Below are positions 37,366-41,670 of a stretch of DNA of 64,000 nt, in pieces (position 1 is the first letter of the stretch; each line of letters starts with the position of its first letter). The stretch lies in contig NZ_JBBNAD010000005.1 of the NCBI RefSeq assembly GCF_037996765.1, positions 1,086,001-1,150,000 on the forward strand, read 5' to 3'. The notes beneath the pieces are model-generated. The model was given only the letters and a program-made list of their open reading frames with translations. It was not told the DNA's origin and did no database searches. Source of the stretch: Bdellovibrio sp. GT3 (lineage in GTDB: Bacteria; Bdellovibrionota; Bdellovibrionia; Bdellovibrionales; Bdellovibrionaceae). A program made the position numbers and the translations under genes.

Positions 37366-38193
37366 ATGAATTTAGATCTGCCTTTGGATGAATACACGTA
37401 TATTGCATTTGATACCGAGACCAGCGGAGCCTATCCGGTAGGATATGACATCGTGGAGTTTGGTGCGGTGAAGTTTCACAAAGGTCAGGAAATTGATCGT
37501 CTGCAGTTCCTGCTAAAGCCTCGCGAGTTGATGAGTGACTTCATCATCGGAATTCATGGCATCACAAATCTAATGGTTGCCGAAGCTCCATTAATGCCAG
37601 AAAAAGTTCAACAGATTCACGAGTTCTTCAAGGGCTCTGTTGTTATGGCTCATCATGCACCGTTTGATTTGGGTTTTTTGACAATTGATTTTGAAAAAGC
37701 CGGTTTGCCTTTACCAATTGAACCCGCATTGTGCACAAGTCTTCTTTCGCGCAAATGGATTCATGGTGTTGAAAATCATAAACTGCAAACATTGATCAAA
37801 CATCTGAACATAGATGGTGGTCAGGCGCATCGTGCCTATGATGATGCTAAGGCGTGCTTATATGTTGGCTTGGAATGCTTTAAAAAAATGGGCGAGGGAG
37901 CAACTCTTGCACAGGCAATTAAAAGCCAAGGCAAGCAACTGTGGTGGAAAGATTATTCCATGTACACGGTGAACAACAACAATCTTAAGACGATGATTGA
38001 ATCCATTCATACCAAAAAAGATTTGGATCTTGTATATGATGGGGGCTCAGCTAAGGGCGAGACTCGTCGTGTAAGTCCAATTGGAATAGTACGCAATCCA
38101 GATGGTGATTACCTTATGGCCCTTTGTCAGAGAGAGAACACCAATAAGCGTTATTATCTGTCCCGCATCAAAGATGTGGGAATTGTTTATTAA
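37366..38193 (+). CDS. DEDDh exonuclease fused to a WYL-like domain
   Basis: 275 residues. The N-terminal 180 residues are a DnaQ/epsilon-type 3'-5' exonuclease with all five metal and catalytic residues: D16 and E18 (FDTETSG), D101 (APFDLGF), H155 and D160 (AHRAYDDAKA). The C-terminal part (about 205-275) matches the WYL pattern: LDLVYDGGSAKGE, RRVSPIGIV, YLMALCQRENTNKRYYLSRI. WYL domains sense ligands such as single-stranded nucleic acid or cyclic nucleotides in repair and defence proteins. It is 79 bases before lon on the same strand. Confidence 0.82.
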   Translation: MNLDLPLDEYTYIAFDTETSGAYPVGYDIVEFGAVKFHKGQEIDRLQFLLKPRELMSDFIIGIHGITNLMVAEAPLMPEKVQQIHEFFKGSVVMAHHAPFDLGFLTIDFEKAGLPLPIEPALCTSLLSRKWIHGVENHKLQTLIKHLNIDGGQAHRAYDDAKACLYVGLECFKKMGEGATLAQAIKSQGKQLWWKDYSMYTVNNNNLKTMIESIHTKKDLDLVYDGGSAKGETRRVSPIGIVRNPDGDYLMALCQRENTNKRYYLSRIKDVGIVY

Positions 38194-40743: not shown

Positions 40744-41670
40744 TTAATCTTTGAATTCAACGACGTTGACGGTGCGCTCAGATTTCATGGTACTGATGCG
40801 TTTGTTGATTTCTTCTGCCAGGGTTTCAAGTTCTTTGAACTCGTCGCCTTTACGCACTTTAAGTGGCGGAATGGACTCGCCCTTCATGATTCCGTAGACA
40901 TATCTTTCAAAGGCATAGATGGGGCCGGCAATGCGATGGGAAAGGACTTTTCCGACTGCAAAAGTAATGGCACAAAATGCGATGCAGATAATAGTGAAGG
41001 TGATCACATAAGGCACCAGAAACTTATTCAAAAGAAATTGGTTATTGCCAACCAGCTCCTGAATGGTCACACGCAGATACGTGTAAGAGAAAACCAGACT
41101 GATCAGAGTAAGACTTAAACCCACGGCCATCATCAGAATGCAGTACTTTACCTGAAACGACAAATTGACCCAGAAACGTTTGCGCGAGTTGTTTTCCGGC
41201 CACAACAATTCTCCTTCGCGGATAATCGCATAGACGATCAAACCATAGCCAACCCATTGAAGGGCATCGGCGATATTGAAAGCCGGGCTGGACAAGGATG
41301 GAGTTCCGATAACAATGAAATCGACAACATATCCCCAGATGATTCGGTCGCCGACGTTGCCCAGAATCCCGCCGATTAATATCGAAAGGCCACAGCGCAA
41401 GGTCAGGGATTTGATGGGTAACAGGTATTGAATCAAAGCGTAAGTACACAGTAGGAATGCGCCGCCGGTGGAAAGTGAGACGATACGCAGCACTGATGGC
41501 AAATCTGAAAACAGGCCTAGCATTGCGCCGTGATTGTGGTGCAATACGAAGTGCAGTGGGCCGTGGGATATCACTGAAGTGATGTCCGTAGCCCACAGCT
41601 TAGTTACGCGGTCGACCAACCAGGTCGCAACAAGAGGAAGTATAACAATGAGCCATTCGCGCTTTTTCAT
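40744..41670 (-). CDS. lspA: Signal peptidase II (LspA) fused to a HAMP-like domain
   Basis: 308 residues; ordinary LspA is about 160. Residues 1-155 keep the family marks: D20-x-x-x-K24, HNHGA in 45-49, GGILGNVGDR with N105 and D108, and the catalytic aspartates D117 (YVVDF) and D135 (FNIADA). It cleaves the signal of lipidated prolipoproteins. After a short linker come two more membrane segments (about 175-197 and 218-242). A HAMP-like pair of helices (about 243-295, SHRIAGPIYAFERYV and RKGDEFKELETLAEEIN) ends the protein. This fusion is unusual. The gene stands alone on the minus strand between lon and dacB. Confidence 0.9.
   Translation of the reverse strand: MKKREWLIVILPLVATWLVDRVTKLWATDITSVISHGPLHFVLHHNHGAMLGLFSDLPSVLRIVSLSTGGAFLLCTYALIQYLLPIKSLTLRCGLSILIGGILGNVGDRIIWGYVVDFIVIGTPSLSSPAFNIADALQWVGYGLIVYAIIREGELLWPENNSRKRFWVNLSFQVKYCILMMAVGLSLTLISLVFSYTYLRVTIQELVGNNQFLLNKFLVPYVITFTIICIAFCAITFAVGKVLSHRIAGPIYAFERYVYGIMKGESIPPLKVRKGDEFKELETLAEEINKRISTMKSERTVNVVEFKD

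Follow-up and report, generated by a model that had tools for sequence, protein, structure and literature searches.

What a WYL domain does at the end of a 3'-5' exonuclease is the question raised by one gene in the 64,000-nucleotide stretch of Bdellovibrio sp. GT3 DNA analysed here (the window). This gene, which we call exo-WYL, lies at 37366..38193 on the + strand and encodes 275 amino acids from an ATG start to a TAA stop, the stop codon included. The sequence-only reading of the locus had described a complete DEDDh exonuclease (D16, E18, D101, H155, D160) joined to a C-terminal WYL-like region, and the fusion and both domain names stood. Pfam assigned residues 13-167 (37402..37866, +) to RNase_T with an E value of 3e-30, and in this DEDDh (DnaQ/PolC-type) 3'-5' exonuclease domain none of the five motif residues varies among the 93 orthologues counted. 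NCBIfam also returned DnaQ/PolC-type exonuclease models, with TIGR00573 (DnaQ family) the only one over its cut-off among the matches listed. Residues 206-271 (37981..38178, +) match the Pfam WYL family, a Sm/SH3-like barrel, at 32.0 bits (E 1.2e-7) against a curated cut-off of 21.8. Searched by itself, this region scored 35.6 bits (E 9.1e-9). The C-terminal regions of 28 orthologues were likewise searched in isolation, and 23 gave a WYL match of their own. Since the score exceeds the cut-off and the isolated regions are recognized as well, the fusion is well above chance.

The two domains are joined by a linker (residues 168-204; 37867..37977, +) consisting of the end of helix 157-175 and helices 181-188 and 194-197, in which W194 is conserved within Bdellovibrionales. 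The signature site reads D248-Y249-L250, so that the literal W of WYL is absent. Pfam found neither an HTH nor a WCX domain in the protein, which is thus not built like the WYL transcription factors of the DriD/PafBC type. The clamp-binding peptide that would follow the exonuclease domain in a Pol III epsilon subunit is also absent. Inspection of the N-terminus revealed no signal-like hydrophobic stretch, and the earlier proposal that the enzyme recycles nucleotides from prey found no support.

To survey the fusion in other genomes we counted, by hand, matches that extend to residue 262 or beyond. Such matches occur in 54 of 59 genomes, that of GT3 included. Hence neither of the two outcomes named beforehand as speaking against the fusion, a lack of WYL matches in profile searches and loss of the C-terminal part in orthologues, was observed. 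Three of the remaining genomes contain fragments at contig ends (G031, G036, G055) and two contain only a WYL-less paralogue (G013, G042). G013 is 88% complete; G042, from the same order, is 99% complete and has apparently lost the gene. In a wider set, a hand count among the matches listed gave full-length matches (residue 262 or beyond) in at least 80 of 144 genomes: 41 of 41 from the order, 36 of 37 from family f17 (presumably Bacteriovoracaceae), two of two from f23 and one of 12 from f12. The fusion is therefore also present in three more families of the phylum Bdellovibrionota. Pfam reported WYL in 60 of these 144 genomes, a number below the fusion count because several WYL parts of the exo-WYL family fall under the threshold of that search. 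In the GT3 genome exo-WYL is the only WYL match detected by this Pfam search, which can miss divergent WYL domains; within that reach, the genome holds no other WYL regulator.

A single-query scan of genome contigs returned 19 loci, all Bdellovibrionota-like; two with other titles (L041, Streptomyces griseus; L037, Deltaproteobacteria) fall inside Bdellovibrionales on the tree. A1 and A4 contain 17 of these 19 loci, and A3 is A2 minus L068 and L070 (2 of 30 rows). For the conservation counts we left out L046 (broken frame, MAG), L049 and L074 (internal TAG, contig end) and L076 and L078 (contig ends). A redundancy cut at 85% identity reduced 71 rows to 53; for the residue counts these were joined by 40 newly fetched ones, giving 93 rows (56 Bdellovibrionales, 34 f17, two f23, one f12). 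In L046 (6001-6974) the exonuclease and WYL matches are about 170 bases apart and not in the same frame, which reflects either a broken gene or an assembly error. A single branch of the tree (support 100/95) separates 93 exo-WYL proteins from 27 paralogues, although the bootstrap values are not settled. With the root at the midpoint, the deep rows L108, L114 and L133 fall together with the paralogues, so that the fusion may, but need not, have arisen once.

The paralogues show what an exonuclease of this family looks like with another C-terminus. The GT3 genome encodes five RNase_T proteins: exo-WYL, a DnaQ-like protein, an oligoribonuclease and a PRK09182 exonuclease (both over their cut-offs), and a protein in which an exonuclease is fused to a part resembling the UvrC N-terminus (L095:376-1959). 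The C-terminal family of exonuclease I (PF08411) gave no match in this genome, with E. coli as a positive control, and is absent from the five Pfam rows of exo-WYL. The DnaQ-like paralogue (G000:C5:491581-492093, in a 214-aa frame) shares 30% identity with exo-WYL; it belongs to the same exonuclease family but lacks the WYL domain and ends in KQMDFFGV. A Q[LM]-type C-terminal peptide, which resembles the sliding-clamp motif (consensus Q-L-S/D-L-F), is present in 27 of 27 WYL-less DnaQ-like paralogues counted (7 + 20; L083, whose match lies in a longer frame without a clamp tail, was left out). Behind the WYL domain a tail of this type occurs in only three of 111 exo-WYL proteins (QTELF, QGTLF and QTTLF in L051, L058 and L061). 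Three or more such tails arose in one of 2000 tail shuffles, but the three are not independent, as two of them belong to the same family. In exo-WYL the WYL barrel occupies the position at which the paralogue carries its clamp-type peptide.

We modelled the full-length protein with AlphaFold2 from 18 sequences (the window protein and related loci). Both the exonuclease and a Sm/SH3-like barrel with the WYL fold were well modelled (pLDDT 94.7, pTM 0.89). The nearest Foldseek relatives of the exonuclease are DinG with ssDNA, PolC, DnaQ, ExoX and epsilon, with VIA Z scores from 24.2 to 19.4. Because this part filled the match lists of the full model, a WYL-only model (pLDDT 86.4) was made and searched. 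Its top Foldseek match is DriD bound to ssDNA (E 2.2e-6), and DriD is also the nearest relative by sequence (E 4.2e-6). By VIA, BrxR (Z 12.0), DriD-ssDNA (11.7, with rmsd 2.0 over 76 aligned residues), CapW-ssDNA (11.7) and PafBC (11.1) are tied, and Hfq-type barrels follow these WYL regulators at Z of about 8.5. DriD, PafBC, CapW and BrxR have the WYL fold in common with exo-WYL, and three of the four were solved with ssDNA or shown to bind it. Unlike exo-WYL, in which Pfam finds neither part, they are transcription factors with HTH domains (and WCX in PafBC and others).

For the WYL pocket the comparison was with PafB. There, R181, Y196, R204, R208, R211 and R214 were tested by mutation, and ssDNA binding was lost on mutating R211 with R214, or R204 with R181 and R208 (PMC11804915). 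By ungapped spacing these six positions correspond to R234, Y249, E257, K261, Y264 and R267 of exo-WYL; the sequence alignment with DriD places arginines at the columns of R234, K261, Y264 and R267. Position 234 is arginine in 89 of 93 rows (52 Bdellovibrionales, 34 f17, two f23, one f12), position 261 is lysine in all 93, and position 267 is lysine or arginine in 84 (47, 34, two and one, respectively). R234 and K261, together with Y224, are conserved across the phylum rows read. At position 249, Y or F is found in 53 of the 56 Bdellovibrionales, but mostly V or I in f17. The position of PafB R211 (264) is aromatic (Y/F/W) in 52 of 56 Bdellovibrionales, varied in f17 (mostly S/A/L) and arginine in three deep-branch rows, and the position of PafB R204 (257) carries an acidic residue in 46 of the 56 Bdellovibrionales. 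R262 (55 of 56) and R243 (51 of 56) are basic only inside the order. From this comparison the WYL pocket appears to be basic but remodelled relative to PafB. Since PafB R211 and R204 find no basic counterpart at Y264 and 257, ssDNA binding by this domain is not a given.

Rough dN/dS values of 0.006 to 0.04 for WYL among the closest relatives indicate that it is under constraint, with the proviso that dS saturates or is undefined for many comparisons. In more distant pairs (L012, L021) WYL evolves faster than the exonuclease (dN 0.37 versus 0.12-0.14), and its mean column identity is lower (0.51 versus 0.68).

The surroundings of the gene are those of a housekeeping gene. The order that recurs over 49 loci, many of them short and showing just part of it, is motA, motB, an outer-membrane protein gene on the opposite strand, exo-WYL, in some cases lon, lspA on the opposite strand, and dacB. 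The window and close relatives have lon directly downstream of exo-WYL; other relatives do not, so that lon is no fixed partner. The lspA gene of the window (40744-41670, -) encodes signal peptidase II, with a Peptidase_A8 domain at residues 14-150 followed by about 150 extra C-terminal residues, in which we recognized by eye membrane-like segments and a HAMP-like stretch but to which Pfam assigned no name. Three f17 loci (L150-L152) have other neighbours, among them a radical-SAM protein roughly 340 aa long (named by Pfam for L150) and, identified by eye, lpd- and acyltransferase-like genes. No defence-type neighbour and no signal gene was seen near exo-WYL at the loci read, and L150-L152 also show housekeeping genes. 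A LexA-like box pattern occurs 13 times in the window compared to 14.6 expected by chance, and not upstream of the gene.

One deep-branch genome differs. In G091 (f12; L147:5455-10933, G091:C378) three genes follow one another in a tight row, separated by 1 and 21 bases. The first encodes a WYL-WCX regulator of 390 aa that matches HTH only weakly, the second an exo-WYL of 266 aa in which KSFRLDR is canonical, and the third a protein of 1160 aa that combines RNase_H_2 with the SF1-helicase domains AAA_11/AAA_12. This row hints at a DNA-repair-like setting, albeit in a single genome. The best PADLOC helicase matches of the 1160-aa protein are the defence-system models MkoA and MkoC, and a defence role within this branch is possible.

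Based on these observations we propose that exo-WYL serves Bdellovibrionota as a cytoplasmic housekeeping exonuclease (DEDDh, 3'-5') in repair or recombination, most likely on ssDNA, and that its WYL domain is a strand-holding module. We give this proposal an even chance of being correct. The exonuclease would trim 3' ends, most likely of ssDNA, while the WYL barrel would bind the single strand on the upstream side of such an end and feed it to, or anchor it at, the active site, much as Pif1 has its ssDNA held by a WYL domain. The two sibling exonucleases would then reach DNA by two recruitment routes, the WYL barrel and the clamp peptide. A DNA substrate is favoured because the exonuclease is nearest to the DNA enzymes PolC, DinG-ssDNA, epsilon and ExoX, and a strand grip because the nearest WYL folds are DriD-ssDNA, CapW-ssDNA and BrxR and because Pif1-WYL provides a precedent. 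Conserved residues partly match the ssDNA-binding residues of PafB (R181 to R234, R208 to K261 and R214 to 267, by spacing). Further support comes from this being the only WYL domain detected in the genome, from the clamp-type tails of the paralogues and of three exo-WYL proteins, from the missing ExoI C-terminal family and from the G091 gene row. Counting against the proposal, DEDDh domains act on RNA too, two PafB arginines have no basic counterpart, no LexA-like box was found at the gene, and the nearly complete genome G042 seems to manage without it. The substrate, the direction of threading and the role in repair are what we infer from these relationships; among the roles proposed earlier (repair, recycling from prey, defence), the first is the most plausible.

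The same WYL domain could instead serve as a switch: on binding a signal, such as short ssDNA or RNA or a nucleotide, it would activate or shut down the exonuclease. Such a ligand-controlled nuclease is possible from the sequence, since ssDNA acts as the switch for the WYL domains of DriD and of PafBC (for PafBC, PMC11804915) and the basic pocket is partly kept; the pTM of the predicted model would also be consistent with a fixed interdomain interface. But the protein has no WCX or HTH part by Pfam, no signal gene was seen nearby, and its WYL domain is the only one detected in the genome, which leads us to consider this switch somewhat unlikely. Moreover, since the nearest solved WYL domains bind ssDNA, the likely substrate of the enzyme itself, a grip accounts for the domain no less well than a sensor does. 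A bolder version, in which exo-WYL is an ancient, phylum-wide, WYL-gated ssDNA sensor-effector doing what elsewhere falls to a WYL regulator and separate nucleases, with the G091 row as the ancestral two-sensor state, strikes us as quite improbable. If true, it would mean that one protein took over this role in lineages that have neither further WYL regulators nor exonuclease I. The fusion might also trim RNA 3' ends, with its Sm/Hfq-like barrel gripping RNA. The resemblance of the WYL model to Hfq, the fusion of WYL with a 3'->5' exoRNase listed in a passage of Makarova et al. 2014 (PMC4012209), and the binding of ssRNA by WYL1 described in an excerpt of PMC9122601 all point this way. Against it stand the DNA enzymes as nearest exonuclease relatives, the oligoribonuclease that the genome already has for short RNA, and the clamp-type tails of three orthologues, and we regard an RNA substrate as unlikely.

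An anti-phage or CRISPR-associated effector nuclease would fit the PADLOC matches, as DEDDh and WYL models both labelled CRISPR-associated recognize the protein; yet these are generic domain models, and one tree branch separates exo-WYL from its paralogues. Because the neighbourhood is conserved and the distribution is that of a core gene, we see a core gene rather than a defence switch. A pattern scan of a viral collection, which reaches only some relatives, found 11 loci with matches that end by residue 175 and no fusion. Long tblastn matches in phage and plasmid records (H1, H2, H21, H22) were considered as WYL fusions and rejected as PolC-type polymerases, H21 by annotation and the others by frame length and look; these four are the records opened out of 454 + 548. 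With housekeeping neighbours, core-gene distribution and no fusion in these viral loci or opened records, the defence role suggested by the sequence-only reading is without support, and an effector nuclease is very improbable. We are just as sceptical of a replicative proofreading subunit with an unusual tail. Although exo-WYL is a core gene with a DnaQ/PolC-type exonuclease, the DnaQ-type paralogue with its clamp tail in 27 of 27 cases is a better candidate than a family in which such tails are confined to three of 111 members.

Returning to the strand-holding module, we considered which known proteins resemble it. In E. coli exonuclease I (SbcB) a DEDDh exonuclease is followed by an SH3-like barrel, which is held to anchor or feed the strand. 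This enzyme appears in the Foldseek list for exo-WYL, but the two chains fail to superpose over their full length (rmsd about 12) and VIA aligned model residues 9-202 only. Homology was considered, and we retain the arrangement as an analogy only. The precedent closest in kind comes from the Pif1 helicases of Thermotoga elfii and Deferribacter, where a C-terminal WYL domain is an accessory ssDNA-binding module (PMC9964779; cited in PMC9122601). Like exo-WYL, these are DNA enzymes with a C-terminal WYL domain, which in Pif1 grips ssDNA; unlike exo-WYL, they are helicases, act on the 5' side of the strand, and share no homology outside WYL. As worded, the fusion listed by Makarova et al. is the same two-domain combination, so the type of fusion has been known since 2014. 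It is a single phrase (PMC4012209), and the passages around it give no distribution, structure or function. Our literature search, largely of titles and listings with some passages, found no account of this protein or its function, and exo-WYL is a new, uncharacterised case.

WYL domains have been studied mostly as sensors of transcription factors. A conserved nuclease with the sole detected WYL domain of its genome therefore offers a clean case for asking whether such a domain grips or switches. For Bdellovibrio, which replicates and repairs its own DNA while degrading that of its prey, exo-WYL is likely a second DNA exonuclease.
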